From contig JAJXZJ010000035.1 in NCBI GenBank assembly GCA_021780105.1, positions 1 to 64,000 of the forward strand: 64,000 nt of DNA. Direction: 5' to 3'. Below, piece after piece: positions 33,019 through 48,469 of this stretch (the stretch's first letter is position 1; every line of letters starts with the position of its first letter). Made by a program: the position numbers and the translations under genes. This stretch comes from a bacterium. Lineage in GTDB: Bacteria > Verrucomicrobiota > Verrucomicrobiia > Limisphaerales > J093. The notes beneath the pieces were generated by a model that was not told the DNA's origin, ran no database searches, and saw nothing but the letters and a program-made list of their open reading frames with translations.

Positions 33019-34968
33019 ATGAAACTTTTCGGAAGCTGGGTAGGATGGTTCGCGGGGGGAGTGGTGGCCGGAGGAATGACGGCGCTGGCCGCGGCGGAGC
33101 AATGGCTGGATTACCACACCACGAGCGAAGGCCGGGGTTACCGGTGGCTGGAATTGTCCACGAACGCGCCGCCTGGCGTGCCGCTGCCGAAGCTCGGCGC
33201 GTCGCCCTGCTTTGTGCGCTGGACCACGCCGCTCGATCCCCAGGGCGCCCGCTGGATTTGCTTTGACCGTGCCCGCCACTACGGCCCTTACAACCGCGTC
33301 TTCCTGGACAGTAACGGTGACGGCCGGCTCGACGACGAAACGCCTCAGGATGCCGTCGCCATGGACGATTACAGCGCCACGTTTGCGCCGGCCCGCGTCG
33401 TGTTCAAGGGCGAGGACGGTCCGCTCACCTATCATCTCAACCTCCGGTTCATGCGCTACACCGAGGACGACATGCGCGTGCTCGCCTCGTCCGGGTGCTA
33501 TTACGACGGGAAGGTCAACCTCGGCGGCAAGAAGCGCCTGCTCACGCTGGAGGACAGCGATGTCAACGGCACGTTCAACGACCACGCGCCTGACCCGGCT
33601 GACTGCGACCACGTCATCGTCGAAGGCGACAAGGCCGGCTACCGGTTGCTCGGACAGATGCTGGAAGTGGGCGACGAGTTGTTCACGATCGAAGTCGCGC
33701 GCGACGGCGCATTTGTGAAACTCGAACCGGCGCAAAACGTGACGCTCGGCCAGGTCCGCGTGCCGGAAACCGTTTCCGAATTCGTCGCCTTCGGCGCGCC
33801 GGGGCATTTTGTTCGCCGGCCGGCGAACGGCGTGTTCACCCTGCCGGTCGGCACCTACCGGGTCCACGGCTGGACGATTGACCGCAAGGATGACAAGGGT
33901 GCCGCCTGGAAAATAAGCGGCTCCAGCTTCAATGACTTCAGCAGCTTCGCCGTGGCCGTGGACAAGCCGGCGGCACTCGACGTTGGTGAACCGGTGCTCG
34001 CCGCGCTCACTGCCACCGAGAACAAAGGCGGCGCTGACTTCAGTCTCCGGCTCAAAGGCCGGCTCGGCGAGTCCGTGGAAATTCTCAAAGGCCCCGAGCG
34101 GCCGCGCGCGCCGCGGCTGCAACTGGCAAGCGCCAGCGGGCCTTTCCGCGCCACCAACACCTTCGAATATGGCTGAGGCGGGCTTTGTTCGCTCTCATGG
34201 CGGGAGCCCAAATCGGCACAGCGTCCCCTCACTGCCACCGTCGAAGTCGCCGGCCCGTTCAAGGTGCTCAGCCGCCCCTTGACCCTGCGGCCGAAGGAGG
34301 TCAAGCCGCCGCCCGGCGGCTCGGCAGGCAAACCCGTGGCGTGGTGGAAACTCGATGAAACCGGTGGCACGGAAGCGGCGGACGCCTCCGGTCACGCGCG
34401 CGCGGCGCGCGTCGAAGGCGCGGCGCGCTGGACGCCGGGGCGGGCCGGCGGCGCGCTGGAGTTCGATGGCGCTCGCGGCTACGCGGATGGCGGCGACGCG
34501 GCGGGTTTCGATTTCCGCGACGATCTGAGCGTTGCGCTCTGGCTCAGGCTGCGGGCACCCGGCCAATCGGCGCAGACCATCATTGCCAAAGGCAGCGACA
34601 CGTGGCGCGTCACACTCGCGGGCAAATCCGACAAGGTGGTCTTCGCGCTGAACGGCCCGCAAACGACCGGCAAAGACCGGAAACGCGCGCCGCAGGTCAC
34701 CTCGAAAACCGGTCTTGCTGACGGCCAATGGCACCACGTCGCCGGCGCTTACGACGGCAAGCGCATCGCGCTCTACGTGGACGGCGAACTGGCGGACGCG
34801 GTGACGGCCGTTGGGCTGGTCGCGTTGAACACGGAGCCGCTCTGGCTGGGTGACAATTCCGCCGCGCGGAGCCTCTGCTTCAACGGCTGGCTGGACGACG
34901 TGCGGCTTTTTGCCGGCGGACTCAGCGACGAGGAAGTCAAAGCCATTTACCGCGAAACGGCCAAGTAA
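33019..34968 (+). CDS. candidate selenoprotein A: secreted, in-frame UGA (Sec386), LamG C-terminus
   Basis: A continuous 649-residue frame broken only by one UGA at 34174-34176 (residue 386). Upstream: signal peptide, then a beta-rich ectodomain with calcium-loop-like DSNGDGRLDDE and EDSDVNGTFND. Downstream, in the same frame, the paralogue-conserved G-Sec-G-G-L-C-S-L-S-W-R-E-P is followed by a linker and a complete LamG/concanavalin domain (about 440-649) ending DDVRLFAGGLSDEEVKAIYRE. A hairpin with an AUGGC loop begins 14 nt after the UGA (34191-34207). Codon use is similar on both sides and no second stop intervenes. selA, selB, selC and selD all lie in the next 15 kb. The alternative reading, two separate genes, leaves the LamG half without a start or ribosome site. 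Function is unknown; UxxxC may be a redox pair. Confidence 0.75.
34191..34207 (+). promoter_or_regulatory. SECIS-like hairpin of candidate selenoprotein A
   Basis: GCUCUC and GGGAGC pair over 6 bp (one G-U) around the loop AUGGC. The loop starts 20 nt after the UGA, inside the usual bacterial SECIS window. In paralogue B the third and fifth pairs change (U-A to A-U; U-G to U-A) while the loop is identical. Confidence 0.7.
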
Positions 34969-35042
34969 GCGGCCGGCTTAGAGTTGAAACGACGACGGTG
35001 CCAAACAAGCCGGGCGCGCGACGCCGCGGGACAATTTGATTT

Positions 35043-38000
35043 ATGCGCATTGCAAACATCGCAAAAACATGGGTCCAGCCGGGCTTGTGGCTGGGCGCGG
35101 TTCTGGCGCTCGTAACCCACGCCCAGACCAACGCTCCGAACACTTTCCTGCTCACTGGTAAGGTCGTGGACATGGCCGGCAAGCCCGTCGCCGATGCTGT
35201 GGTGGAACGGTACGGATACGATCATGGACTGCCCTACTTTGGGATCGAAATGGAACGGCTCGATCGCGTTACCAGTGACGAGAGCGGTGCCTTCGAATTC
35301 CGCGTTTCCCGCGAGATGATCATGCTCGTGGCGCGCAAGTCCGGCATGTCCGTCGGCTGGCTGGAGTTCATGGCAGCACCGGGCATCCCTCACACCCTGA
35401 CTCTCACCCCGCCAAGCGTGCTGGGCGGAGTGGTCGTGGACGAGTCAGGCAAACCGGTGCCCAACGCGGACGTGTTCGTTTCTGCCGCCTTCTCCGAGAC
35501 GGCTGGCAGCGGCAACCGTCGCTGGTTCAGTTACCTGACCGGCAAGCTGGCGCGTGATTGTTTTCACGCCCCCACCGACGCTGACGGGCGCTTCCGCATC
35601 GAGAACTTCCCGACGAACAATTCCGCCCAGCTTGATGTCCGGGTGGCCGGAAAGGCGCTCAAACAGAGAGAAATGCGAGTACGAGCCAATCTCGGCCCGG
35701 ACACAATGCCTTATCAGGCAGGGCAGACCGACATCCGACTCGTGATGGAACCGGCGGGCAGCATCGAGGGCAGCCTCACTTTCGAACCGGCCGGCTCGCC
35801 GTTGCCTGTCGCGCGTCTGACCTTGCAGCCGGATGAACCCGGTTTCTTCGCCGTGGCATCTCTTGAACCGACCGGGTCCGCGCCGGACGGCAGCTTCGTG
35901 ATCAAGGATGTGCCGGCTGGCTCGTATCGCGTTCGCGCCGTCTTCGGCACCAACACCGTTCCGGACTGGGTCGCCGAGAGCGTTTCCGTTTCGGTGGATG
36001 TTGGGCAAGCGACGCGCGGCGTGCAGATCACTGCCCAACACGGTGGCATCCTGGACGTGGCGGTGGCGGGAAAGGAAGACCATAGTCCACTGCGTGAAGT
36101 CAGCGTCAACGCGATCCAGGCGGGTTATCAAACCGTGGCTGCGTCCGAGAGCAACGGCGTCGCCCGGCTACGCCTGCCGCCCGGCGAGTATCAATTGTAT
36201 GCCTTTAAGGTTGGCCGGCAGCAGCAGAACGCGAACGCCACCGTCGAGGCGGGCAAGACCAACCGCGTGGAGATCGAGTTGGCGTTGCCGGTGAAGTTGA
36301 CCGGCGTCGTTCACCGGCCTGATGGCACGCCGGCCGCCGGCTTGGAAGTGCGCATCCTGGGCGCTTTCTCCAGCACCGAAACGTTGGTGAAGACCGATGC
36401 CAACGGCCGGTTTGAAATGGAAGGGAGCACCGGCCGCGGTTCCCCAAACAACATGATACCGTGCCTGCTCGTGCGCGACCCGGAACACGATCTCGCCGTC
36501 GCGCAGGACATCGAGGAGGAAGAGCCGGCTCCGTTTGACCTGCGGCTGGCGCCGGCGCTGACCATCGCCGGTCACGCGGAGTGCGACGGCAAGCCGGTCA
36601 CCAACGCCACCGCCACGCTGATTTTCTGGACCGGCAACAGTGGTATGCACCTGTCGGACCTTTGCACAGGAACCAACGTGCCGGGACGCTTCGAGATTTC
36701 CGCGCTGCCACCTGGCCGGAAATACGGCGTGCTGGTTTCGGCGCCGGGTTTTGGGCAGAAGGCCATTTACAACCTTGAAGTCCAGGCAGACCCCGGCCGG
36801 CAGGAACTCGATCCGGTGGAACTCAAAGTCGCCAACCTCCCACTCGCCGGACAGGTGGTGGACGCAGACGACAAGCCGGTCGCCGGTGCCAGCGTGAATC
36901 TGAACGGCGACGGTCAGCCCGGCGGTTTCACGCGCACGGATCGCGAGGGCCGCTTCCGCTTCGAGCACGTTTGCGAAGGTTCGATCCAGCTTTTTGCCAG
37001 CGCGGGCGAACGCAACGGCAACGTCTCGGCGCAGGGCGGCGACACGAACGTGGTTGTCAAGCTCGGCGAGCGCAACGCCGTTTATCCCGGCGCCACCGCG
37101 CACAAGTTGAAAGGCGTGGTGACCAATCCCGACGGCAAGCCCGCCGCTGACGTGCCGGTGACAGTGTTTCCAGCCTTCGGCTCGTCGCGCTGGATCAAGA
37201 CCGGCACCAACGGCGAATTCAGCCTATCGTGGCAGGTCGAGCCGTGGCAGGCGCAGCAAGGCGGCACACCGTTGCTGGTGGCGCGGGATTTGGCCCGCAA
37301 CCTCGCCGCCGCGGAGGACATTCCGGAGGAGGCCACGAACCTCGACCTCCAGTTGAAACCGGCGCTCATGTTTGCCGGGCGGGTCGAAGACCCCGGCGGC
37401 AAACCACTCGCGGGTGCCGAGGTCGGCGTGTGGTTGCTGGCCAGCCGCACTTACAGCCAGGTGGACGGGCGGCCGGCCACAACCGGCGCGAACGGCGGCT
37501 ACGAAATCAAGGCGCTGCCGGCCGGGCAACAATTCATCGTGTTCGCCAAGGCAAACGGCCGGGGCCGGGGCCAGCGGCAGGTTTCGACGGACGCGGAATC
37601 AAGCCGCGTCGAACTCGATCCGTTCGTGCTCAAGCTGGCGGATCAGGTGCTGGCGGGCCAGGTGGTGAACGAAAATGAAAAGCCGGTTTCCGGGGTGAAT
37701 GTAATGCTCTCCGGCGAAGATCAACCGGAAGGTAATCTCACGACCGACAGCAAGGGGCGGTTCCATTTCAGAGTGTGCGAAGGCACCGTCCGCCTGTTCT
37801 GCAGCGGCCAGAACGGGTATGCCAACGTCACTGTCGAAGCCGGCGACACGAACGTCGTCATACATCTCACCTCGTCCGGTGGTGCGGTTCAGCCGGCGCC
37901 CGCGCGGGCTTCGCTCAAAGGCAAACCGCTGCCGGATCTGACCGCGGTCGGCTTGACCGCCGACGCCGTGCCCGCCGGCAAGCCGGCGTTGATTTGTCTC

Positions 38001-38318
38001 TTTGACGCGGAGCAGCGGCCGTCGCGCCACTGCGTAAGTCAGTTGGTGGAGCAGGCGGGCGCACTCAAACAGCAGGGCGTCGCGGTGGCTGTCATTCAAG
38101 CCGCGCTCGCGAGCGACGATGCCTTCAAGCAGTGGCAGGAGGCGAACACCGTGCCGTTCCCGGTCGGCCGCGTCGCGGCGAAGAACGAACAAACCAAATG
38201 GGCAACCAGCGTGGACTCGCTGCCGTGGTTGATCCTGGTGAACGCGGAACATCGCGTGACCGCGGAAGGCTTTACGCTCGACGAGCTTGATGCCAGGCTC
38301 AAGCAACCTGCCAAATGA
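35043..38318 (+). CDS. secreted carboxypeptidase-regulatory-repeat protein with redoxin-like C-terminus
   Basis: A 1091-residue exported protein. After a signal peptide come roughly eight transthyretin-like carboxypeptidase-regulatory repeats, each with the signature G-(V/x)-V-x(2-4)-G-K-P-V/A-x-A/G-(A/D)-V (for example GVVVDESGKPVPNADV and AGQVVDADDKPVAGASV). The last about 130 residues (from near 960) look like a thioredoxin-fold redoxin domain: KGKPLPDL, PALICLFDAEQRPSRHC, and a late cis-Pro-type segment SLPWLIL. The first cysteine of a CxxC is replaced (S-R-H-C), leaving one thiol. It sits between candidate selenoproteins A and B and overlaps B by ATGA, so it is probably co-translated with B and may be its redox partner. 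That partnership is inference. Confidence 0.8.
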   Translation: MRIANIAKTWVQPGLWLGAVLALVTHAQTNAPNTFLLTGKVVDMAGKPVADAVVERYGYDHGLPYFGIEMERLDRVTSDESGAFEFRVSREMIMLVARKSGMSVGWLEFMAAPGIPHTLTLTPPSVLGGVVVDESGKPVPNADVFVSAAFSETAGSGNRRWFSYLTGKLARDCFHAPTDADGRFRIENFPTNNSAQLDVRVAGKALKQREMRVRANLGPDTMPYQAGQTDIRLVMEPAGSIEGSLTFEPAGSPLPVARLTLQPDEPGFFAVASLEPTGSAPDGSFVIKDVPAGSYRVRAVFGTNTVPDWVAESVSVSVDVGQATRGVQITAQHGGILDVAVAGKEDHSPLREVSVNAIQAGYQTVAASESNGVARLRLPPGEYQLYAFKVGRQQQNANATVEAGKTNRVEIELALPVKLTGVVHRPDGTPAAGLEVRILGAFSSTETLVKTDANGRFEMEGSTGRGSPNNMIPCLLVRDPEHDLAVAQDIEEEEPAPFDLRLAPALTIAGHAECDGKPVTNATATLIFWTGNSGMHLSDLCTGTNVPGRFEISALPPGRKYGVLVSAPGFGQKAIYNLEVQADPGRQELDPVELKVANLPLAGQVVDADDKPVAGASVNLNGDGQPGGFTRTDREGRFRFEHVCEGSIQLFASAGERNGNVSAQGGDTNVVVKLGERNAVYPGATAHKLKGVVTNPDGKPAADVPVTVFPAFGSSRWIKTGTNGEFSLSWQVEPWQAQQGGTPLLVARDLARNLAAAEDIPEEATNLDLQLKPALMFAGRVEDPGGKPLAGAEVGVWLLASRTYSQVDGRPATTGANGGYEIKALPAGQQFIVFAKANGRGRGQRQVSTDAESSRVELDPFVLKLADQVLAGQVVNENEKPVSGVNVMLSGEDQPEGNLTTDSKGRFHFRVCEGTVRLFCSGQNGYANVTVEAGDTNVVIHLTSSGGAVQPAPARASLKGKPLPDLTAVGLTADAVPAGKPALICLFDAEQRPSRHCVSQLVEQAGALKQQGVAVAVIQAALASDDAFKQWQEANTVPFPVGRVAAKNEQTKWATSVDSLPWLILVNAEHRVTAEGFTLDELDARLKQPAK

Positions 38319-40426
38319 AGCAGCCCGGTGTCATCAACTTCTTGAAACAGGCAGTCGCCGTCCCGCCCGTCGCGCTGCTGACCGCCGGGCTGTTCCTTGT
38401 TGCTGCTGTCTCGTTGCGCGGTGCCGACGACGCGGCCGCGACGCCGGCGCCGGAAGTGACCGTGGTCACGCTCGAACCACAGCAGGTTGACTTCACGGTC
38501 GCCAGTTTCAGCGTTTATGCCGAGCGTGAGACAACGGCTTTCGCGAAAGAGCCGGCGTTGCGCCGGGACCGCTTCGTTCGCGGCAGGTTGCCGATCAACG
38601 GAGGCGCGACCAACGCACTGGCGTTTTTGTGGGACACCGACGCAGGCAAGCTGTATCTGGACCTCAACCGGAATCTCAACCTGACCGACGACCCGGAGGG
38701 CGTGTTCACGTGGGCGCATGAGCGCGGCTCCAGCAGCGCGAACCCGTCGTTCAATCGTGTGCCTCTGCCGTTGCTGACGCCGGCGGGCCGCCGCCAGGAA
38801 CTCGTGGACCTGCGTTTCTGGAACCTCGCCGGCAATCAGCTTCTCTGCACCGTGACGCTGCACTCATTCTGGCAGGGCAAAGTGAACCTGCATGACGAGG
38901 AGTGGCGGGTGGGCATCGTGGAGAACGTGCTCACCCAGACCGGGGCGAAGGAGAATGCCTCGTGGCTGCTGCTCCGGCCGTGGGCGGAGCGCAACCAGGC
39001 CTTCAACACCGACGACGGCTCACTTCGCGTCGTGCCGTTTGCGCGGGTGCTGAGCGTCCACGATCACACTTACGGACTGGAGTTGCTTGACGCGACGCCC
39101 GGCGGGAACGCCGGCTTCCGGCTGCAATTCACCGAACAGCGTCCGTTGCGCGGCGAAATTCAAATCGCCGGCAATTTCATCGAACGCCTCACGCTCACGA
39201 AAGCTTCGGAACTGGTCGTGCTCGACCGCCCTGAAGGCACGGTGCGCGTGCCGGTGGGCGATTACAACATTGCCGGTGTGTGGTTGAAAAACGGCGGCGC
39301 GGAGGCGTATCGCGACGCACGGCAGGCGATGCTCGCGCCGAGTCTTCACGTCGCCGTCGCCGCCCCACCCGCGGTGCTGAGTGTCGGCGGGCCGTTGACC
39401 AACTCGGTGACGGCCGGGCGTCGCGGTTCGATGCTTTATCTGAACTACCAACTGCTCGGAGTTGGCCGGGAAACCTACACGCGCATGGGCGTGGGACGAA
39501 CCGTGCCGCCGGCGTTTGCGATCTTTCACGGCGGGCACCAGATCGCCACCGGGCAGTTTGAATTTGGCTGAGGTGGCACCTGTTCGCACTCATGGCGAGT
39601 GCCCCTGACGGCGGCGGGCGAGTTGAAAATCCAGGCGGTTGCCGACTTGGGCGGATTGGGCGACAAGGACGGCGCGCCGGTGGTTTATCACTGGACCCTG
39701 CCCAACCTGATCCACCCGTTGCTGCCGGGTCTGGCGGTGCTGGCTTTGTTGCTCGTGCCGCGCAACCGTTGCGGGTCGGCTTGGTGGATTTGGATTCCGC
39801 TGCTCGCCGTGGTGTTTCTGGCGCCGCCGCTGGTCAATGCCTTCAGCCTGCCGTCCGAACTGGCGGACGTAATCGGCGCCCTGGCCTACGGACTCGCGGC
39901 GACCTGGCTGCTGGCGCCGTTCCTGGCCCGGCGCCACCGCTTTCTGTCATTTCTTTGCATTCTGCCGACGTTGGCCGCTTTCAGTGTGCTTACGTATCTG
40001 TTCAAGCAGGACTGGGGTGGCGTGGATACGGACATGGTTTTCCGAACCCTGATCGCGTTCGTTTTCGGCGTGCCCGTGATTGCCTTCGCACTGTTCCTGA
40101 CGGGCTGGATTTGCCGGCAGCGATATCGGCCGGCCGCCGTGACGTTCTGGTTTGCCGTCGCGCTCTTGGGCATCTGGCTCGTAGTTACCGCGCCGTTCTT
40201 CGTGATAACCATGATCGCATCGTCTGGCGAAGTTCCGTGGAGCACTCTGTTTATTTTCCACGCCATAATCAGCGGCGTCAGCTTCGCGTTGACCTTCCCG
40301 TTCCTCGTGCTCGCGTTCGCAAACAGCCTGTTCCGCGACCGGCTGAAGGGCTTGTTGAACTTGGAGGAAACGCCGCCGGTGCCGCCGCCGGTGCCGCACG
40401 CCGCGGCCACGCCAGCTTGCGGTTGA
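38315..40426 (+). CDS. candidate selenoprotein B: membrane-anchored ectodomain, in-frame UGA (Sec419)
   Basis: A continuous 703-residue frame with one UGA at 39569-39571 (residue 419). The N-terminal part has a signal/anchor (VPPVALLTAGLFLVAAVSL) and an ectodomain parallel to that of candidate A: LDLNRNLNLTDD for A's LDSNGDGRLDDE, VPVGDYNIAGVWL for LPVGTYRVHGWTI, and PPAVLSVGGPL before the shared F-E-F-G-Sec-G-G-T-C-S-H-S-W-R-V-P. Downstream in the same frame a stretch of about 40 residues leads into about seven membrane helices (residues about 460-680). The ectodomain with Sec would thus face the periplasm. The hairpin with AUGGC loop lies at 39586-39602. A gene caller would split it at 39571, leaving a membrane half with no start that matches. 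Codon use is uniform across the UGA. Confidence 0.75.
39586..39602 (+). promoter_or_regulatory. SECIS-like hairpin of candidate selenoprotein B
   Basis: GCACUC and GAGUGC pair perfectly over 6 bp around the loop AUGGC, with the loop 20 nt after the UGA, the same place as in paralogue A. Two stem pairs differ from A by changes that keep pairing. Confidence 0.72.
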
Positions 40427-40526
40427 AATCGTGCGCTGTTTGTCTCAGAATGCCGGCGACGTGACCCGCTTCGCTCCCAGACAAGGTGAATCGGCGCCGG
40501 CCTTCCGGGCAGTGGAAAGCCGGTGT

Positions 40527-40623
40527 GGAGGTGTAGGGCGACCTGGTGGCGCTCCTGGTCTTCAAAACCAGCGTGGGGCTCAACAAAGTCCCAGGTGGGT
40601 TCGATTCCCATCCACCTCCGCCA
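40527..40623 (+). tRNA. selC: tRNA-Sec (anticodon UCA)
   Basis: A 97-base tRNA gene including an encoded CCA. The acceptor begins GGAGGTG and pairs with CACCTCC before the discriminator G and CCA. The extended D stem is G-G-G-C-G with C-G-C-T-C. The anticodon stem CTGGT/ACCAG encloses the loop CTTCAAA with anticodon TCA at 40562-40564, which reads UGA. A long variable arm follows (GGGGCT..AGTCCC), then a T arm with TTCGATT. The overall layout matches E. coli selC: long extra arm, long acceptor plus T stack. It lies between two candidate selenoprotein genes. Confidence 0.93.
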
Positions 40624-40723
40624 AACAATGCCAAAAGTTGAAGGACGAAGGCATAAAGTAAATGCACCTGTTGCCAGCCACTCGCGGGTTTCAGCCTTTG
40701 GCTTTTAGGTTTTGGCCTTATCC

Positions 40724-41098
40724 ATGAGCCGCATCCCCCAGCCACCCGTGAATCTCGCCTTGCGCGATGCGGAGCGCCACGATTTCTGGCTGGGATTCGT
40801 CGTGGTGCTGGCCGGACTGCTGCTGGCGTTTTGCGGCGCGCAGCACCTGACCAGCGTGGGAACGGTCGAAGGCGCCAGCGCGAGCGAGCCCGACCTGATC
40901 AAGGCGTTTTCCTTCGGCGGCCTGCAATACGCGAGCGAGCAGGCGCCGCCCAAGCCGCCGAAACCCACGGGCGACCCCGCCGCTGATGCCGCCGCGCTTG
41001 CCAAGTGGGACCAACAGCAGGCCGGCGTCCGGCCGCCCGACTGGAAGGTCCGCGTGGACATCGGCGCGAAGACGCCCTGTCCTACGTGAGTGAAGTAA
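40724..41098 (+). CDS. candidate selenoprotein C: small membrane-anchored protein ending CPTU-Val-Lys
   Basis: A 124-residue frame: one N-terminal membrane helix (FWLGFVVVLAGLLLAFCGA), a Pro/Ala-rich linker, and a C-terminal stretch K-V-R-V-D-I-G-A-K-T-P-C-P-T. The apparent stop is UGA (41087-41089), but reading through adds Sec-Val-Lys before a UAA. That would give a C-P-T-U redox motif (C119, U122) at the extreme C-terminus, reminiscent of C-terminal selenols. A strong hairpin with the loop AUGGC lies at 41105-41123, with its loop 22 nt after the UGA. It follows selC by 100 bp. The UGA could instead be a true stop, so this call rests on the hairpin and the CxxU position. Confidence 0.6.
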
Positions 41099-41104
41099 GT
41101 TTTT

Positions 41105-41123
41105 CGGCCACATGGCGTGGCCG
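41105..41123 (+). promoter_or_regulatory. SECIS-like hairpin of candidate selenoprotein C
   Basis: CGGCCAC and GUGGCCG form a perfect 7-bp stem around the loop AUGGC, 22 nt after the UGA. The stem is unrelated to those of A and B but the loop is identical. It lies beyond the UAA, so it is under no coding constraint for this protein. Confidence 0.65.
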
Positions 41124-41236
41124 GCGAAAAGGCCGACTGGCGCATTCCGGAGTCCGCGGGGAGAGCCGGACTTGGTTTTGATTCAGGCCGGCGATCGCCG
41201 TTGTTTTGGGAGCGGCCGGCAAATTGTGGATTTGTT

Positions 41237-42109
41237 ATGGACGGTTCTGGTGAACATGGTCGGTCGCAGACAGCGACAGCGCTGGGCCGGAAGCTTTCGC
41301 GCCTTCGTCCGTGGGTCCAAACCAGCTTCCTCGGTGTGTGGCTCGCCCCGGTGGGCCAGTGGCTGCACGCGATTCCCGGCTGCGTTTTCCATTGTTACTC
41401 CTGTCCGCTCTCGTCGTTTGCCTGTCCCGTGGGCGTCGCCGCGAATTACGCCGCGCTGCTGCCCGCCGCATTCGAGGTGCCCTATCTTTTGATCGGGATA
41501 CTGCTGGTCATCGCCGCGGCCAGCGGAAGTCTGGTCTGCGGCTGGGCGTGCCCCTTTGGTTTTCTGCAAGACTGGCTGGCGAAAATCCCGCTGCCGAAGC
41601 TGCGCCTGCCTGCCTGGACCGGCTGCCTGCGCTACGTCGTGTTGGTGGGCCTGGTGTTGCTGCTGCCCATGATTCTCGGATTCCAGGGCATTCCGTTCGA
41701 CGAACAATCTGTGTCAATCTGCCGGCTCTGCCCGGCCGGCGCGCTCGAGGCGGGCCTGCCTTATTCCGTGAAGAGCTATCTTGCCGGCCAGGGCTGGTTG
41801 ATGAGCTGGTTCAAGACGGCGATCCTCGTCACATTTCTGGCGTCGGCGATGTTCATCCACCGACCGTGGTGTCGGTTGTTCTGTCCGCTTGGCGGATTTC
41901 TCGCGCTCTTCAACCGCGTCAGCCTCTTTCACCTGCGGTTCAATGCAAAGGAATGCGTCGAGTGCAACCTCTGCCGCAGCCGGTGCTCGATGGGCGTGAA
42001 GGTGGACGAGAAAGTCAACGTCAGCGGTTGCGTCCGCTGTCTCGAATGCGTGAAGTGCGGCGCACTCGAACCTGCCTTCGCGCTGCCCGCAGGCAGGGCC
42101 AAAGACTAA
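41237..42109 (+). CDS. membrane 4Fe-4S ferredoxin-type protein (NapH/NosR/YccM-like)
   Basis: A 290-residue polytopic membrane protein with the twin C-x3-C-P motifs of the NapH/NosR family (SLVCGWACPFGFLQDW and RPWCRLFCPLGGFLALFNR) and a C-terminal cytoplasmic double 4Fe-4S ferredoxin domain (CVECNLCRSRC with CVRCLECVKC). Such proteins move electrons across or along the membrane to periplasmic partners. It follows candidate selenoprotein C, itself a membrane-anchored thiol/selenol protein, so an electron-transfer pair is plausible. I chose ATG 41237; the frame is open to 41117 and includes the hairpin region, but that part looks non-coding. Confidence 0.82.
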   Translation: MDGSGEHGRSQTATALGRKLSRLRPWVQTSFLGVWLAPVGQWLHAIPGCVFHCYSCPLSSFACPVGVAANYAALLPAAFEVPYLLIGILLVIAAASGSLVCGWACPFGFLQDWLAKIPLPKLRLPAWTGCLRYVVLVGLVLLLPMILGFQGIPFDEQSVSICRLCPAGALEAGLPYSVKSYLAGQGWLMSWFKTAILVTFLASAMFIHRPWCRLFCPLGGFLALFNRVSLFHLRFNAKECVECNLCRSRCSMGVKVDEKVNVSGCVRCLECVKCGALEPAFALPAGRAKD

Positions 42110-42111
42110 AC

Positions 42112-42156
42112 GCTGAAGGCTGAAACCGATGAAGAATCGCGCCTTCAGCCTTCAGC
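42112..42156. terminator. convergent inverted repeat at the end of selD
   Basis: A perfect 13-bp inverted repeat (GCTGAAGGCTGAA at 42112-42124 and TTCAGCCTTCAGC at 42144-42156) with a 19-base loop lies where the ferredoxin gene and selD converge. It overlaps the last selD codons. Each arm contains internal tandem CTGAAGG copies. It is a likely bidirectional terminator, though no clear T tract follows on the plus strand except CATTTTAT. Confidence 0.55.
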
Positions 42157-43761
42157 CTTCGGCATTTTATCCAGATTCTCCTGATAAAACAGCTTCACCG
42201 GCGCGCCGCCCATCGCGATGGCGCACCACGCCGCCTCGTCCAGTTCCGCCTGGCTGAGGCCCAGCTCGCGCGCCCGGCGGAGGTGCGCGTCAAAGCACGG
42301 CGCGCAGCGGCTGAAGACGACCAGGCTGAAGAGGATTAACTCCTTCGTCCGTTCGTTCACGGCGCCGGCTGTTTGAACCGAACGCATGAACGCGCCGAAG
42401 GCCCGTTGCGATTCCGCCACGGCGCCGGCCGCAGGTTCGCGATTGAAAATGTCCGCGCAGCAGCCTTCGCTGTGCGCCTCGGGAATCGAATTGGGTGAAC
42501 TCATGGAAACGCCTTCCGGCTGGTTGCGGTTTGGTTCCATCAAAGTGGTCGCAGTTTTTTCCCGCGCATTCGCCGCGAAGAAAATTTCTCCCACGGTGCC
42601 ATTGATAATTTCGCCGATGACAAAGCCGTCGGCGCCGCGCCGCGCCAGTGCTTGAAGCAATATTTCCCGCCGCCCGGCCGGCACGGCGATCAACAGCCCG
42701 CCCGATGTCTGCGCGTCGAAGCCGAGATTCACCAGCGCCTCATCCACGCCGGGTGCGCCGCGCAGGCCGTCGCCGACGTATTCGCGGTTTCGCTCGATGG
42801 CGCCGGGCACGACGCCCTGCCGCAGCAAATCCAGCGTGCCATCAAACGCCGGCAGCGCGTCCGCAAACACCCGCGCGGTCAGCCCTCCGGTTCGCAGCAT
42901 CCGCCGCAGGTGCGCGAACAGGCCGAAGCCCGTCACGTCCGTGCAGGCCGAGGCGCCGGCTTCGAGCATCGCCTCCGCCGCCGCGCGGTTCAGCGTGGCC
43001 ATTGAAGCTTCCGCCGCAGCGAGGCCCGTGGCGTGGGCGCGACCGATCTGCCGGGCAAACGTCAGCACGCCGGTGCCAAGCGGTTTGGTCAGCACCAGCG
43101 CATCGCCGACGCGCGGAGTTTCCAACGCCGCGGCGACTGCTGGGTCAATAGTGCCGGTGATGGCGAAGCCGAGTTTGATTTCGTCGTCCTTGAGACTGTG
43201 GCCACCGACGAGTGCCACGCCGGCGTCGGCCAGGACTTCCATCGCGCCGGCGAGCAGGTGAAACATGATTTCGCCCGGCAGCTTCTCAGACGGAAACGCC
43301 AGCACGCTCAACGCCGTGCGCGGCGTCCCGCCCATCGCGTAGATGTCGGAAAGACAGTTTGCCGCGCAGATGCGGCCGAACAGATGCGGGTCGTCCACGC
43401 AGGGTGTGAACACGTCCACCGTCTGCACGAGGCAGAGGTTGTCCGCGATGCGGTAAACCGCCGCGTCGTCACCGGCGGCCAGGCCGGAGATCACGGCGGG
43501 ATCATTCACCGCCGGCAACCGCCCCAGCACGGCGTCGAGGTCCGCCGGGGCGATCTTCGACGCGCAGCCGGCGTTGTGGACCAACTCGGTCAATTTCACC
43601 TGCGTGACGTCCACCGGGTCGGGCCGCTCGCCGGCGCAAGGGCAGATGCCTTGGTCTGTGAACACGTCGCACGGGCAGGGCCGGCGCACGTCGCAGATGC
43701 AGTGGCCGAGCTGCCGCGACCGCTCCATGACCAAATGGCGTTTGGCGAGATCAACCTCCAT
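42145..43761 (-). CDS. selD: selenophosphate synthetase fused to an AhpD-like domain
   Basis: Makes selenophosphate from selenide and ATP, the selenium donor for tRNA-Sec. The 538-residue protein has three parts. Residues 1-50 hold a cysteine-rich module (C21, C23, C29, C31, C40, C42 in HCICD..PCPCD..GICPCAGE) that may bind metal. Residues about 52-410 are SelD proper, with catalytic C66 and K69 in GCASK, then DDAAVYR and the GGHSLKDDE and TKPLGTGVL blocks. Residues 420-538 form a carboxymuconolactone decarboxylase/AhpD-type domain with C486-x2-C489. No stop lies between the last two parts, but an ATG with a GGAAGG site at 42504 could start a separate protein. The catalytic residue is Cys, not Sec. 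The start at 43761 lies one base after the upstream gene's stop. Confidence 0.88.
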   Translation of the reverse strand: MEVDLAKRHLVMERSRQLGHCICDVRRPCPCDVFTDQGICPCAGERPDPVDVTQVKLTELVHNAGCASKIAPADLDAVLGRLPAVNDPAVISGLAAGDDAAVYRIADNLCLVQTVDVFTPCVDDPHLFGRICAANCLSDIYAMGGTPRTALSVLAFPSEKLPGEIMFHLLAGAMEVLADAGVALVGGHSLKDDEIKLGFAITGTIDPAVAAALETPRVGDALVLTKPLGTGVLTFARQIGRAHATGLAAAEASMATLNRAAAEAMLEAGASACTDVTGFGLFAHLRRMLRTGGLTARVFADALPAFDGTLDLLRQGVVPGAIERNREYVGDGLRGAPGVDEALVNLGFDAQTSGGLLIAVPAGRREILLQALARRGADGFVIGEIINGTVGEIFFAANAREKTATTLMEPNRNQPEGVSMSSPNSIPEAHSEGCCADIFNREPAAGAVAESQRAFGAFMRSVQTAGAVNERTKELILFSLVVFSRCAPCFDAHLRRARELGLSQAELDEAAWCAIAMGGAPVKLFYQENLDKMPKAEG

Positions 43762-43762
43762 G

Positions 43763-44515
43763 TCATGCCCCAAGCGTTCGCGGTTTAAAGAGTTCAGGGT
43801 GAGCGTCTCTAAATTCTGTCTTGAATGCCTCTTCCCCCTCTTCAAGTTCTTCCAATAGATATTTTCTATATTTCTTTTGGCTCAAACGTAACGCCTCGCG
43901 TGAACATCCTTGCTTCACAGACTCGATTTCAAAAACCTCACTTACCAGATACTCGATATGCTCCCAGGTTGATTTTTCTCCCTCCTCTCCTTTTTGTCGC
44001 TGGCGAATGTATGATGAGCCTTCTTGGTAATAGAGCGCAATCCAATGACAAAAGCTTTGGTGCAAGACTCTTTCGCTTAACTGGTTTCCGTATAGGTAAA
44101 ATCCGAGGTTGTCAAAGAAATCCAGAATCGGCTCTATTTCAGCAGCATCCGGAATCTTACCCCAATCTCCAGTGTCCGAATATTGGAGCAAGACTGCAGC
44201 AGCCTTCCCACGTTGTTCCGTCATATCGGAGAAAAATTCCTTCTCAAATCGAAGCACCAGACTGGGGTCATAGGCTCGCTTGAGGTGAGCCTTGTAAGTT
44301 GCGGAAACGCCAGCAGCAACGGCGAATATCACCAAAATGCCAGCGATTACCAGCCTGAGGCATGATTTTTGGCTGACGTCGTGAGTGCTGGACTGAATAG
44401 ATGGGCCTACATACGTCGCAATCGCCAACAAGAAGCCAATAGCTGCGGCCTCCCAGTCAAGGTAAAGTGACAGTTTAAAAATCTTTTTCCTTTTTGGCCA
44501 TTTGATCGTTGACAT
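43763..44515 (-). CDS. AT-rich membrane protein inserted in the sel operon
   Basis: A 250-residue protein of unknown function with two N-terminal membrane helices (AAAIGFLLAIATYVGP and LVIAGILVIFAVAAGVSA), then a cytosolic helical domain rich in aromatic and acidic residues (IEPILDFFDNLGFYLYGN; FCHWIALYYQEGSSYIRQ). The pattern resembles DUF4760-type proteins, a weak resemblance judged by eye. Base composition drops visibly from 43.8 to 44.6 kb compared with both neighbours. That suggests a recently acquired gene placed between selB and selD, on the same strand. It ends one base before the selD start. Confidence 0.7.
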   Translation of the reverse strand: MSTIKWPKRKKIFKLSLYLDWEAAAIGFLLAIATYVGPSIQSSTHDVSQKSCLRLVIAGILVIFAVAAGVSATYKAHLKRAYDPSLVLRFEKEFFSDMTEQRGKAAAVLLQYSDTGDWGKIPDAAEIEPILDFFDNLGFYLYGNQLSERVLHQSFCHWIALYYQEGSSYIRQRQKGEEGEKSTWEHIEYLVSEVFEIESVKQGCSREALRLSQKKYRKYLLEELEEGEEAFKTEFRDAHPELFKPRTLGA

Positions 44516-44585
44516 ATTTGAAGGTGGTGTTGTTTTGCGGGATGTCTAGCCCTTAAAGCCTAAAAACGTCTGTTTTAGTAAGCGT

Positions 44586-46535
44586 CTATAAAAGCAGTCT
44601 CCTCGCTTCCACACCCGGCGTGCGGTGGTTGCTGGAACGAACGGTGAAACGCAGCCGGTCGAGATGATCCAGCAGCGGCACGGCGAACTTGCGGCTGACG
44701 CCGAGCGCGTCGCGAAATTCCATCGTCGTGAACGCCGGCGCGCGCCGGAAAAGCTTCAGCGCAACTTGCACTCCCGCCTCGACCGCGTCGCGGTGCATCC
44801 AAACCTTGTCGTCCAAGCGCACAACCACGCCGCGTTCGGCGAGCAGTTTCATCAACGCGGCGACGCGCGGCAGCGGCTCGCCGATTGCCGCAACCAGTTC
44901 CTCCAAACCCGGCGGCGTCCAGCCGGCTGCCTTAAATCTCACCTCGATCTGCCCGCTCAATTGCTGGTCGCGGTCGGCCACTTGCGGCTGCCAATTGGTC
45001 ACGGCCAGCAACTCGCCACGGCGCTGGATTTGGCCGGTTTCGATCAACTGCGCGGCTGCGAGCTCGAACACCGCCGCGTCGCATTTCAGCACGGCCAGCA
45101 GTGTGTCGCGGCCGGCGCCGGCGCGCTGCGGATTGGCGGTGTGGAACGTTTGCAGCTCCGCGAGCAACGCGGCGGCGGTCTGGTCGCGAATTTCGCGATG
45201 CACCCACGCCCCGCCGGCCGTCGGCAGCACGCGTCCCCCGGCGTGCAACTGTTCCAGTTGGGCGGCCAATTCGTCGGCGTGAAGGAGGCAGTGTCGCTCC
45301 AACTCGCCGGCGGTGACGGGCGTGGCGCTTTCCCGCACCATGAGTTCGCACCAGCGCGACGCATCGTCCATCGCGTCTCGTCGGGCGCGGAGCGCGTCAA
45401 TCGTCCATGGCTTGCGGCGATGCAAGCGGACGTTGCTGATGCCCAAAATCCGCCCGCCGCCGATGGTGGTCAGGCCGTCGCGCGCCGCGTCCGCCACATT
45501 CAGGCGAAGCACGAAACGTTCGCCAGGCGCCAACGGCAGCGGCTCCGCCAGCCGGAGCTGCACCATTTGGCGGTCGCCGGCGCACATTTCGGATTGTTCC
45601 AGCATCGCCACGCGTGCCGAGACCGCGGCGGTGCCGACGTGCAGCTGTGCTGCGACGTAATCCTCGACCTTGCCGGGCACCGTCGCTAGAAGGCGCAACT
45701 CCGCCTCGGCCATCGCCACCAGCGGCAGGGCGTCGGCTTCGCCGAGCACCATGCCGCGCCGGACGGCGAGGTGGTCCAGTTCCGGCAGGTTGAGCGCGAC
45801 ACATTCGCCGGCGCGTCCTTCGGCCGCGTCTTCGCCATACACCTGCATCCGCCGCACGCGGCCGGACAAGCCGGACGGCAGCAGCCGCAGGTGATCGCCA
45901 GTCCGCACACGCCCGCTGGTGGGAATGCCGGTGACGATCGTGCCGGCGCCACGAATCGTGAACACGTCTTCCACCCACAGGCGAAACCGGCCGGCACACG
46001 GGCGGTCTTCGCACCGGCCGACGACCTCGTTCAGCGCATCGAAGAAACCGTCGAAGCCCTCGCCGGTGACGTTGGACAGCGGGCAAATCGGCGCTCCGGC
46101 GAGGAAGGTGCCGGCGAGCAGGCGGCGCAAATCGCGGACGACAAACTCACGCCGCGCCGCGTCCACGAGGTCGATTTTCGTCAGCGCCACCACGCCGTGG
46201 CGCAGGCCCATCAGCGTCAAAATGTGCAGGTGTTCGTGCGTCTGCGGCATGATGCCATCGTCTGCGGCGACGACGAAAATCACCACGTCAATGCCGTGCG
46301 CGCCGGCCACCATGTTGCGGATGAAGTCCACGTGGCCTGGCACGTCCACGACACCGACGACGCGTTGGTCGGCCAGCCGGCACGGCGCGAAACCGAGGTC
46401 AATCGTCAGCCCGCGCTGTTTTTCCTCGGCCATCGTGTCGGTTTCGCAGCCGGTGAGGAGCTTGACCAGCGCGGTTTTCCCGTGGTCCACGTGCCCGGCG
46501 GTGCCGAGCATGACGTTGCGGCGCGGAGTGCTCAT
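44586..46535 (-). CDS. selB: selenocysteine-specific elongation factor SelB
   Basis: Delivers Sec-tRNA-Sec to UGA codons by binding the SECIS hairpin. The 649-residue protein starts with an EF-Tu-like GTPase (GTAGHVDHGKT at residues 11-21, DVPGHVDFIRNM, TKIDL), continues with beta-barrel domains II and III, and ends with tandem winged-helix domains (from about 400) that recognise the RNA hairpin in E. coli SelB. It overlaps selA by 4 bases (ATGA), so the two are translationally coupled. The winged-helix end is complete and should recognise the UGGC-loop hairpins described here, which is inference. Confidence 0.95.
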   Translation of the reverse strand: MSTPRRNVMLGTAGHVDHGKTALVKLLTGCETDTMAEEKQRGLTIDLGFAPCRLADQRVVGVVDVPGHVDFIRNMVAGAHGIDVVIFVVAADDGIMPQTHEHLHILTLMGLRHGVVALTKIDLVDAARREFVVRDLRRLLAGTFLAGAPICPLSNVTGEGFDGFFDALNEVVGRCEDRPCAGRFRLWVEDVFTIRGAGTIVTGIPTSGRVRTGDHLRLLPSGLSGRVRRMQVYGEDAAEGRAGECVALNLPELDHLAVRRGMVLGEADALPLVAMAEAELRLLATVPGKVEDYVAAQLHVGTAAVSARVAMLEQSEMCAGDRQMVQLRLAEPLPLAPGERFVLRLNVADAARDGLTTIGGGRILGISNVRLHRRKPWTIDALRARRDAMDDASRWCELMVRESATPVTAGELERHCLLHADELAAQLEQLHAGGRVLPTAGGAWVHREIRDQTAAALLAELQTFHTANPQRAGAGRDTLLAVLKCDAAVFELAAAQLIETGQIQRRGELLAVTNWQPQVADRDQQLSGQIEVRFKAAGWTPPGLEELVAAIGEPLPRVAALMKLLAERGVVVRLDDKVWMHRDAVEAGVQVALKLFRRAPAFTTMEFRDALGVSRKFAVPLLDHLDRLRFTVRSSNHRTPGVEARRLLL

Positions 46536-47932
46536 GCCGCGATCCGGCTCAGCGCGCTGGCGATCGCCGGCAGTTGTTCATCAGCCACCGTGCGGACATC
46601 GAGCAGCACGCGCTCGTGTTCGATGCGGCCAAAGACACAGGCCTCGTCCAGACGCAACCGCCGCGCCAGTTCCGCCGCGCTCATGCCGGGGACGACGACC
46701 GTGACGGCAACGCTCTCAATTGCCTCGGTGGGCAGCGAACCGCTGCCGAGGTAAGCCGCGCTGTCCACCAACGTCACCCTGACCTTCGGCGCTGCCGCGA
46801 CGATCGAACCGGCCAGCTTGTTCGCCCGGGCCTTCAGCGTCTCAGGCGGCGTGTCCAGCATCCGGTAAGTCGGGTGTTCGCGGCGCAGGCGTTCCGGATC
46901 GCGGAACAGCGGCAGCGTCCGTTCCAAGACCATCAGGCAGGTTTTGTCCACGCGGATGGCACGCATCAACGGGTGTTTCCGGAGCCGGTCAATGAGGGAT
47001 TTTCTGCCGACGATCACGCCCGACTGGCTTGCGCCGATGAGCTTGTCGCCGCTGAACAGGACGACATCGGCGCCGGCTTCAATGGATTCACGAACCGTCG
47101 GCTCGTGCGGCAGTCCGAACTGCTCCAAGCCCACCAGCGCGCCGGCACCAAGATCGTCCATCAGCAGGAGGCCGCGGCTGTGCGCCAGCTCCGCGAGCTG
47201 GCGCAAGGCAACTTCGCTCGTGAAGCCGATCACGCGGTAGTTGCTCGGATGCACGCGGAGAATCGCCGCGGTGTGTTCGCCGATCGCCCGCTGGTAATCC
47301 TTGAGATGGGTGCGGTTCGTGGCGCCGACCTCGACCAGCCGCGCGCCGCTCTGGGCCATGACTTCCGGCAGCCGGAACGAACCGCCGATTTCGATGAGCT
47401 GTCCGCGCGAAACGATGACTTCCCTCGGCGCCGCCAGCGCGGCGAGCACGAGCAGCGTGGCCGCGGCGTTGTTGTTCACGACCGTGGCCGCCTCCGCGCC
47501 GGTCAGTTCGGTCAGGATCGGTTCAAGGAGTTCGTCGCGCTCGACGCGTTCGCCGGTTTCGCGGTCCACGGCGAGCGTGCAATAGCCACTCAACTCGCCG
47601 CGCATCGAGTCCACGACGACACCGGGAAAAACGGCGCGGCCGAGACCGGTGTGCAGGATGACGCCCGTGGCGTTGATGGCTTCCCGCACCCGTGGCACCG
47701 TGGCCTCGCGCAACAGACCTGCCGCCGCCGTCAGGATGGTTTCGACCGCGGCGTCTTCAGCCCGACCATCCGCGAGGACGCGGCGGCGGGCTTGCGCGAC
47801 GGCCCGGCGCAGGCAGACCGTGACGAGCCCGGGCGGGTGCGATGCCAGCCAGCGTTCCACTTCGCGATGCTTCAGCAGCTCCGAGATGGAAGGAAGCTGC
47901 GGGAGCAACGCCTGTTTGTCGTCCGCCTGCAT
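46532..47932 (-). CDS. selA: L-seryl-tRNA(Sec) selenium transferase
   Basis: Converts Ser-tRNA-Sec to Sec-tRNA-Sec using selenophosphate. The 466-residue PLP enzyme shows the family blocks INATGVILHTGLGRA, VNNNAAATLL, SRGQLIEIGGSFRLPEVM and LMDDLGAGALV, and the PLP lysine K297 in FSGDKLIGASQ. I chose ATG 47932; the frame is open to 48130 but lacks family similarity there. selA heads the minus-strand sel genes and is divergent from candidate selenoprotein D across a 201-bp spacer that must hold both promoters. Confidence 0.95.
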   Translation of the reverse strand: MQADDKQALLPQLPSISELLKHREVERWLASHPPGLVTVCLRRAVAQARRRVLADGRAEDAAVETILTAAAGLLREATVPRVREAINATGVILHTGLGRAVFPGVVVDSMRGELSGYCTLAVDRETGERVERDELLEPILTELTGAEAATVVNNNAAATLLVLAALAAPREVIVSRGQLIEIGGSFRLPEVMAQSGARLVEVGATNRTHLKDYQRAIGEHTAAILRVHPSNYRVIGFTSEVALRQLAELAHSRGLLLMDDLGAGALVGLEQFGLPHEPTVRESIEAGADVVLFSGDKLIGASQSGVIVGRKSLIDRLRKHPLMRAIRVDKTCLMVLERTLPLFRDPERLRREHPTYRMLDTPPETLKARANKLAGSIVAAAPKVRVTLVDSAAYLGSGSLPTEAIESVAVTVVVPGMSAAELARRLRLDEACVFGRIEHERVLLDVRTVADEQLPAIASALSRIAA

Positions 47933-48133
47933 GGTTGCGCCTGTGGTTGAGCGCAGCATGAAGAACTCGCGGCAGCCGGTCAACTGCGCTCCGGCCGGCC
48001 GTCGGCACGCGGCGGCCCGACGCCTTTTGACAGCCGCCGGTTGCTGTTTTACGGTCTGGCAGCCAGAAACGAAACGATTGTCATGCGCGCTGCGTGTATC
48101 AACGCAAGCGCCACCGGGAAGCGAGGCCATGTC

Positions 48134-48469
48134 ATGAATGCCGAATTGCCGCCGATGGTGAAGTCGGGTGCCGAACCGGGCGCACCGTCAAATCCGCCAA
48201 CGAACCTGGGCCGCGTGGGCATGGCGCTTTCGTTCGTCGCGCCCGCGGTGTTTCTCGTTTTCCTGTTGCTGCGACCGGGCTGAGGTTCTGGCCTGGCAGT
48301 CCTTGGCGGACTGTGTCTATTCCTCGTCCCGCCGGTGGCGTTGATCGTAAGTCTGATTGCGGTCATTCGCGGGCCGGGCCGGCCCGCGGCCATCGTCGGG
48401 TTGGTCCTGGCCGTCTTGAGCCTGTTGTTCTTCTTCGCGCTTCCCGTGCTCGTGGCCCTGTGCCGATAG
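48134..48469 (+). CDS. candidate selenoprotein D: small membrane protein with in-frame UGA (Sec50)
   Basis: A 111-residue frame with a UGA at 48281-48283 (residue 50). Before it come a short polar N-terminus and a hydrophobic helix (VGMALSFVAPAVFLVFLLL). After it, in the same frame, G-S-G-L-A-V-L-G-G-L-C leads into two more clear membrane helices and a UAG stop. The hydrophobic periodicity continues across the UGA. The hairpin at 48296-48314 has the loop UUGGC, 19 nt after the UGA. The gene is divergent from selA. The nearest cysteine is C61, so a simple CxxU pair is not present. Alternatively the UGA is a nonsense mutation in a small membrane-protein gene, but the hairpin argues against that. 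Confidence 0.62.
48296..48314 (+). promoter_or_regulatory. SECIS-like hairpin of candidate selenoprotein D
   Basis: GCAGUCC and GGACUGU form a 7-bp stem (outermost pair G-U) around the loop UUGGC. The loop starts 19 nt after the UGA. The stem shares no sequence with the other three hairpins, while the UGGC loop is the same. Confidence 0.65.

Follow-up and report, generated by a model that had tools for sequence, protein, structure and literature searches.

The window analysed here is a stretch of 64,000 nucleotides (nt) of contig JAJXZJ010000035.1 (assembly GCA_021780105.1), part of a 4.55 Mb draft genome of a bacterium of the Verrucomicrobiota. Within it lies an island in which four genes, here called g1 to g4, each run through a single in-frame UGA codon and are interspersed with selA, selB, selC and selD, the genes of the machinery for selenocysteine (Sec, U) (Table 1). 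We found all four UGA codons where an initial annotation of this DNA had placed them, and its statement that the complete machinery lies among the four genes was confirmed: the tRNA-Sec with anticodon UCA exceeds its gathering threshold, and SelA, SelB and SelD score 533, 317 and 328 bits against their NCBIfam models, all above the cut-offs. It is close to certain, judging from the sequence, that Sec is inserted at the UGA codons of the island genes. It is also very probable that the island encodes three selenoprotein families together with its own Sec machinery, the main family having a U-x-x-x-C motif in an immunoglobulin-like (Ig-like) domain; this second estimate excludes the electron relay proposed below.

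By their sequences the four genes are members of three families, GUGG (g1 and g2), CPTU-stop (g3) and PGUG (g4). The initial annotation had spoken of four new selenoproteins; they are supported as selenoproteins, but g1 and g2 count as one family because the Sec domain is common to both. With g2 as the query the Sec region of g1 is recovered (G000:C26:33814-34230; G numbers denote genomes and L numbers loci), and a shared-domain profile built from both matches both. The GUGG domain is about 100 residues long, is predicted to consist mainly of beta strands and ends in most members with G-U-[G/S][G/S]-x-C-x-x-S-W; it is followed by a LamG domain (PF13385) in g1 and by a hydrophobic membrane domain in g2. 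The g3 type ends with CPTU[V/I][K/R/H]-stop. The claim of protein-like sequence on both sides of the UGA holds for the GUGG and PGUG families but not for g3, in which only two codons follow the UGA and the hairpin lies beyond the TAA; ordinary gene calling, which was said to truncate or split all four genes, would shorten g3 by three residues and not split it. The Sec regions of g1 to g4 lie outside every Pfam model and every NCBIfam model (June 2026). The products of g2, g3 and g4 have no match in either library at E 0.01, and both matches of g1 fall on its LamG part (Pfam LamG over the cut-off; NCBIfam TafC at 41 of 410 bits), so that the absence of a known family is true of the Sec regions but not of the downstream half of g1. 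Among 41 GUGG domains there was no NCBIfam match better than E 0.057, and in ten more full-length members no Pfam model was over its cut-off in the Sec region.

Homologues of all four genes cross the UGA, whereas the initial annotation had named homologues that all end there as the outcome that would tell against it. In 146 relatives g2 has 28 matches in 15 genomes; 27 contain one UGA (one of them also a TAA) and the remaining match covers the C-terminal portion of a gene that another match already represents. For g3 there are 14 matches in 13 genomes, of which 13 end in CPTU, each of these rows having two further codons before the stop, and the other is weak and has two UGAs. The UGA is present in 6/6 matches of g4, and while g1 matches 142 of the relatives, nearly all through LamG, the listed matches that span its Sec site have UGA in 7/7 cases. 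Searched against 387 genomes of the phylum, a GUGG profile matched 15 times in 11 genomes, each match with a single UGA, although one is doubtful (G329, E 7e-4, in a frame of 77 amino acids); among 248 genomes from the class to which G552 belongs (Phycisphaerae according to the record title) it gave 113 matches in 35 genomes, of which 102, in 31 genomes, have one UGA, nine are free of stops and two lie in a decayed frame with TAG/TAA, the position of the UGA at the Sec site being checked in the fetched loci and not in every row, and the motif expression missing 5 of the 15 phylum matches. By eye, three of the nine stop-free matches place a Cys in the Sec column or one residue away from it (FQSQ-C-CGNYRLSW in two and WCS-C-VESFSHSW in one); the remaining ones show Gly or residues that bear no relation, except one that ends before reaching the site. 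Cys forms were absent from the matches in the 146 relatives, in a search that was not exhaustive and that sought g3 and g4 in those genomes only. The Cys residues looked for at the UGA positions of relatives thus come down to three candidates, and UGA is widely kept there. In L366 (G546:C175) the domain has decayed, with TAG/TAA codons and Arg at the Sec position. All 13 GUGG matches of G661 contain UGA, and the one that was read (L361) is MEFGUGGLCEYSGGVP, without the usual SW.

Each UGA is followed by a hairpin with a loop of 5 nt and a stem of 6, 6, 8 and 7 bp in g1 to g4, respectively. When both strands of the window were scanned for UGA and, 19-22 nt on, an [AT]TGGC loop on a stem of at least 6 bp, with at least 30 open codons upstream, exactly these four sites were obtained, against a mean of 0.05 and a maximum of one in 60 order-2 Markov simulations, and this part of the initial annotation stands as it was made. 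A looser scan (loops [N][TC]GG[CGT], 17-24 nt, stem of 5) added seven rows, namely the g3 hairpin reached from another UGA and six that look like chance. When members were picked by protein motif alone, 28/28 of the GUGG type had a stem of at least 6 bp, all at exactly 20 nt, a hairpin was present in 11/13 of the CPTU type, and in the PGUG type 6/6 had a stem of at least 5 bp and 5/6 one of at least 6 bp.

Table 1. Genes and hairpins of the selenocysteine island (window coordinates; SECIS, selenocysteine insertion sequence).
Feature	Position	Strand	Remarks
g1, selenoprotein, probably exported: beta-rich region, Ig-like GUGGxC domain, C-terminal LamG	33019..34968	+	Sec codon 34174-34176
g1 SECIS hairpin GCUCUC-AUGGC-GGGAGC	34191..34207	+	loop 34197-34201, 20 nt after UGA
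Carboxypeptidase-regulatory repeats; C-terminus weakly redoxin-like (AhpC-TSA, below cut-off)	35043..38318	+	adjoins g1/g2
g2: hydrophobic N-terminus, beta-rich region, Ig-like GUGGTC domain, hydrophobic membrane domain	38315..40426	+	Sec codon 39569-39571
g2 SECIS hairpin GCACUC-AUGGC-GAGUGC	39586..39602	+	loop 39592-39596, 20 nt after UGA
selC, tRNA-Sec, anticodon UCA	40527..40623	+	70.9 bits, gathering 47
g3: one hydrophobic segment, C-terminal arm ending CPTU-V-K-stop	40724..41098	+	Sec codon 41087-41089
g3 SECIS hairpin, 3' of the TAA stop, loop AUGGC	41104..41124	+	loop 41112-41116, 22 nt after UGA
NapH/NosR-like membrane 4Fe-4S protein	41237..42109	+	open frame from 41117; start 41237 inferred via relatives
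selD fused to AhpD/CMD-like domain	42145..43764	-	SelD over NCBIfam cut-off
selB, member of separate SelB lineage	44586..46535	-	SelB over NCBIfam cut-off
selA	46532..48130	-	model match from residue 78; true start probably further in
g4: small protein, three hydrophobic segments, Sec in RPGUGS after the first	48134..48469	+	Sec codon 48281-48283
g4 SECIS hairpin, loop UUGGC	48296..48314	+	loop 48303-48307, 19 nt after UGA
BadF/HgdC-type activator ATPase	48498..49445	-	library matches
Double-cubane-cluster reductase NF040772	49277..50623	-	395.4 bits, curated cut-off 350

The hairpin, as judged from its pairing, is selected as RNA. Across 42 aligned sequences each of the six pairs has changed on both sides, and 99.6% of cells pair, compared with 29-54% with a slid partner; these counts are biased because the rows were picked by a stem of at least 4 bp (left out were L020 and L030, whose GUGGC loops the search expression missed, L048 and L049, which gave no match, and duplicates), and the count from protein motifs alone is fairer. 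Among 139 unique GUGG members a His codon CAC in the 5' arm goes with a Val codon GUG in the 3' arm in 13/13 cases, and a Tyr codon UAC goes with GUA in 56/71, the other 15 having GUG (a U-G pair); the association of residue with Val codon has a Fisher p of 6e-8, uncorrected for kinship. GUA makes up just 7 of the 459 Val codons in nine island genes, and the change of Val codon is synonymous, yet pairing is kept. The loops of the 139 members are GUGGC (78), AUGGC (53), AUGGG (6), CUGGC (1) and AUGGA (1), so the [A/U]UGGC form first described, while true of the window, is the local part of a broader NUGGC form to which the first two loops contribute all but 8 of the 139; three distant members (L280, L284, L291) differ, their hairpins having the loops GGGUC, CGUGU and CGUGA. 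The bacterial SECIS (bSECIS) consensus, as the accessible text of PMC13188914 gives it, asks for an upper stem of 4-16 bp, a loop of 3-9 nt, 16-37 nt from UGA to loop and a G at loop position 1 or 2. The window hairpins lie within the limits of stem, loop and distance, but all four of their loops break the rule on G, which is satisfied by GUGGC, that is by 78/139 GUGG members. On its own genome a covariance model of the hairpin gave six matches at E <=10, three in the island and three weak ones without a credible frame, a search that is incomplete for UUGGC loops because g4, itself a row of the model alignment, was missed.

The distribution of this hairpin can be set beside that of SelB. At E <=0.01 the covariance model matches in 15/146 relatives, exactly the genomes with g2, and in none of the other 131; the 15 are largely matched by construction because the model was built from those genomes, so that the informative part is the 131 empty genomes and the members outside the alignment (two in G017, and G003:C53). 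SelB is over its cut-off in 14/15 g2 genomes and in 50/146 relatives overall (p 9e-7), and the only g2 genome without it, G065, is 57% complete. In a tree of 29 SelBs, which covers 12 of the 14 from g2 genomes (G008 and G011 left out), 15 of the 36 others and the second SelBs of G003 and G004, the 12 from g2 genomes lie on one side of a branch with 100/100 support, and the 17 on the other side are the 15 from genomes without g2 and the two second SelBs. Elsewhere, 37 GUGG loci were studied in 36 genomes, of which 30 have SelB over the cut-off; 30 SelB loci were obtained (L306 repeats G003), 29 of them with a better score against the window type than against a single conventional SelB; FastTree keeps those SelBs together with the exception of L302 (G565).

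Our findings suggest, while they are far from proving, that the window-type SelB lineage serves a selenoprotein set of its own. The alternative, that the NUGGC hairpin and this lineage have no special pairing and the same SelB also reads ordinary SECIS elements, has in our estimation an even chance of being correct. The conventional SelB rows come from one order only, the GUGGC loops fit the general bacterial rule, and a single ordinary SECIS was compared, that of the formate dehydrogenase of G086 (loop GGUCU), a genome with a conventional SelB. Formate dehydrogenase is the most widespread bacterial selenoprotein according to the accessible text of PMC13188914. It offers a weak contrast here: an FdhA-like match occurs in 27/40 genomes and is over the cut-off in seven, and G086 alone has a UGA in it; the five GUGG genomes with FdhA over the cut-off all have Cys, and G057, which has a conventional SelB, has no UGA either. 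Formate dehydrogenase was accordingly discarded as a client of the window-type SelB, since its sole UGA form among the 40 genomes accompanies a conventional one. Against a shared SelB stand the two groups within one order, which track the presence of g2, and the genomes in which two SelBs exceed the cut-off (G003, G004, G565 and G535, in the last of which one does so only together with in-frame neighbours); the pairs of G003 and G004 are split between the two tree groups, although the two SelBs of G003 may represent two organisms because that genome is listed with 8% contamination, and contamination may also lie behind the pairs of the other three genomes. A second, dedicated channel of Sec insertion, in which this SelB lineage would read only NUGGC hairpins for exported GUGG, CPTU-stop and PGUG proteins that hardly ever have Cys in place of Sec, in some cells beside a conventional SelB with other selenoproteins as its clients, is put forward tentatively, as a possibility that leans towards doubt.

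The GUGG proteins are probably exported or membrane-anchored. Hydrophobic segments exceed the hydropathy threshold in g2, g3 and g4, and a hydrophobic N-terminus can be found in 22 members from other genomes, with starts picked to favour one. The predicted model of g2 is fair to good (mean predicted local distance difference test score, pLDDT, 85.2) and that of g1 poorer (75.4), and the better Foldseek rows are Ig-like and macroglobulin-type folds with low template modelling (TM) scores; rows for SoxYZ and superoxide reductase were too weak to use. A CuA-type copper site for U-x-x-x-C was rejected, there being no conserved His of the kind found in the CuA motif. In relatives g2, g1 and the redoxin-like gene are grouped, in an order that differs from that of the window, the redoxin-like repeat gene being found near GUGG genes; g3 precedes the NapH-like gene, and selD, selB and selA are nearby where the contig is long enough. 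The g3 type also lies directly upstream of a NapH-like gene in L170 (Riflebacteria), L213 (Planctomycetes) and L320 (Hydrogenedentota). The NapH-like protein has two Fer4_5 stretches and hydrophobic segments.

These observations can be drawn together in a model. The NUGGC-loop hairpin 19-22 nt after the UGA would recruit SelB with Sec-tRNA, so that Sec replaces the stop, a step for which the comparison of genomes gives strong support. In the main family Sec would come to lie near the end of the Ig-like domain, four residues before the Cys of U-x-x-x-C, with which we infer that it forms a reversible Se-S bond. The NapH-like Fe-S membrane protein would take electrons from the quinone pool and hand them to the C-x-x-U arm of g3, g3 would keep the Sec of the GUGG proteins reduced, and these may then have a peroxide, a disulfide or a similar compound as their extracytoplasmic substrate. 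We infer each step of this extracytoplasmic relay, from the quinone pool through the NapH-like protein and g3 to the GUGG domain, and its chances as a whole fall a little short of even.

Several results weigh against the reading of the island as set out above. Cys homologues, the usual support for a selenoprotein, are almost absent from the matches covered, and the inference of Sec therefore rests on conservation of the UGA, on the hairpin and on co-occurrence with the Sec machinery. The hairpins of 2/13 CPTU members do not fit. Of 609 Foldseek matches to the PDB at E <=10, none has E <=0.001. In g1 no segment exceeds the hydropathy threshold, so its export rests on an N-terminus read by eye as signal-like. 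The NapH-like protein scores 46.8 bits against a cut-off of 213.05 for TIGR02163 (NapH/MauN), and at L319, a short locus, a CPTU-stop row is present but no NapH-like gene was detected. The partner Cys is missing while Sec is kept in a few members, L345, L365 (G576) and L165 (GUSGSSSRTW, GUSSTGSYSW), so the chemistry of the U-C pair is not universal. Because of this loss of Cys, a role for Sec in ligating a metal or as a carrier site, with copper, mercury and selenium as examples, instead of in a redox pair retains some probability, though we consider it unlikely. All 11 GUGG-like rows outside the strict motif keep U and two of them lack Cys; a probable location outside the cytoplasm would suit such a site, and redoxin-like and Fe-S neighbours are no proof of catalysis. 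The same 11 rows nevertheless keep Cys in nine cases (the 139-member set, which needed Cys by its pattern, is not counted), and the recurrent Fe-S membrane neighbour of g3 suits a flow of electrons, in keeping with the redox pair that we prefer.

Readings that dispense with Sec altogether fare much worse. Were the UGA a true stop, the downstream parts would be separate genes or remnants and the hairpins coincidental or concerned with, for instance, translational coupling; standard gene calls do end at the UGA and there is an AUG inside each AUGGC loop, which in g2 opens a frame of 290 amino acids at 39592, but this is another reading frame. In the GUGG and PGUG families protein conservation continues past the UGA without a change of frame, all 13 CPTU rows read have two more codons before their stop, the Sec machinery co-occurs, the covariation is synonymous and four hairpins are found where 0.05 are expected, all of which makes this explanation very improbable. 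Least probable of all is a genome-wide reading of UGA as an ordinary amino acid, which would account for the frames that are open across it, but UGA is the actual stop codon of g2 (40424-40426) and also, two codons beyond Sec, of five g3 homologues, the genome's own formate-dehydrogenase-like gene has no in-frame UGA and a tRNA-Sec (UCA) is present.

Further features of the island concern selenium supply and its neighbours. SelD reads NAGCASK, with Cys and not Sec at the position that we take to be its active site. Its fused AhpD/CMD domain reads CAPC. The fusion may serve to deliver or reduce selenium for SelD, and similar match lengths suggest that it is common to the relatives and some other groups. 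The double-cubane reductase and its activator adjoin GUGG or sel genes in several groups; subunits of 2-hydroxyglutaryl-CoA dehydratase are among the sel-associated genes of Slackia heliotrinireducens in the accessible text of PMC5322559.

All three families occur with Sec machinery beyond the Verrucomicrobiota. In GTDB genomes the exact GUGG DNA pattern matched at least 116 stretches, 80 of them obtained as loci; being lower bounds, the counts by phylum are not rates. Of 85 matches read, 56 have a stem of at least 5 bp at 20 nt, which leaves 55 with both frame and stem when L169 is set aside as chance, and three of the 29 without such a stem are family-like (L178, L193, L233). By record title the GUGG loci belong to Planctomycetota (Sedimentisphaerales, Phycisphaerae, Pirellulaceae), Verrucomicrobiota, Sumerlaeota/BRC1, Hydrogenedentota, Riflebacteria and Omnitrophota; L175 (genome G539), titled Actinomycetes, falls in the class of G552 and its title is doubtful. 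When about 110 loci of other genomes were scanned without a protein motif, for UGA and hairpin behind 50 or more open codons, 21 rows beyond strict GUGG came up, made up of 11 GUGG-like, five CPTU-stop and five PGUG. CPTU-stop rows outside the Verrucomicrobiota are in L170, L213, L319 and L320, and PGUG rows are in L293, L297, L305 and L311, loci fetched for selB. A viral or mobile origin was considered and set aside; in IMG/VR the GUGG pattern matched five stretches, of which one (L400) has an open frame and stem and four look like chance. In L400, a contig of 46,080 bases, 460 open codons precede the motif of a GUGG member (MEYGUGSTCALSWGEP) whose stem has 6 bp. The contig may be cellular DNA wrongly filed as viral, or the gene may have been transferred.

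The island resembles known bSECIS selenoproteins such as FdhA in having a UGA followed by a hairpin, SelA, SelB, SelC and SelD, and a Sec that is presumably redox-active; it differs in that the first G of the window loops is third, the g3 hairpin lies past the stop and there are nearly no Cys homologues. Most known selenoproteins are thioredoxin-like in the accessible text of PMC13188914, whereas the GUGG domain is Ig-like. To judge by the name, the UXX-star proteins (NF041114, NF041211) listed in the same text share with g3 a Sec three residues before the stop, but g3 has no NCBIfam match at E 0.01 and is set apart by its membrane segment, its CPTU and its NapH-like neighbour. The SAO/Tso operons of that source likewise gather several unrelated selenoproteins in one neighbourhood, but of other families, whereas here the Sec machinery lies inside the island and SelB is of a separate lineage. 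The neighbour of g3 is like the NapH/MauN ferredoxin-type proteins in its two Fer4_5 stretches and hydrophobic segments, while its score is far below their cut-off. The motif GUxG of the hypothetical protein DG (NF049953), found by deep-Sep, also fits GUGG, but none of the 41 GUGG domains matches NF049953 in NCBIfam at E 1; DG comes from Desulfosediminicola and is said to have Cys homologues in the accessible text of PMC12013277. As far as the accessible text of the 2026 catalogue (PMC13188914) goes, none of its 119 families shows the motifs described here, apart from the GUxG of DG. We found no report of these families in titles and abstracts, mostly of open-access papers, and they may have been described elsewhere; selenoproteins reported in two planctomycetes may overlap with them (PMC4807772, from its accessible text).

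Current detection of selenoproteins leans on two filters, a standard hairpin and the existence of Cys homologues. According to the accessible text of PMC12013277, the approach used there may fail to detect a selenoprotein that lacks Cys homologues, and every known one seems to have such homologues. The families described here can be overlooked because they fail the Cys filter almost wholly and, in the window, the rule on the hairpin loop as well, although 78/139 GUGG members elsewhere would pass the latter. This is so even though the UGA form is present in 31/248 sampled genomes of one class, with up to 13 matches per genome. Recognizing these proteins would widen what is known of extracytoplasmic selenium use in Planctomycetota, Verrucomicrobiota and their relatives. 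Should the SelB lineage prove to be specific for its own hairpin, the two would make a natural orthogonal pair for the engineering of Sec insertion and would provide a test of how SECIS recognition evolves.

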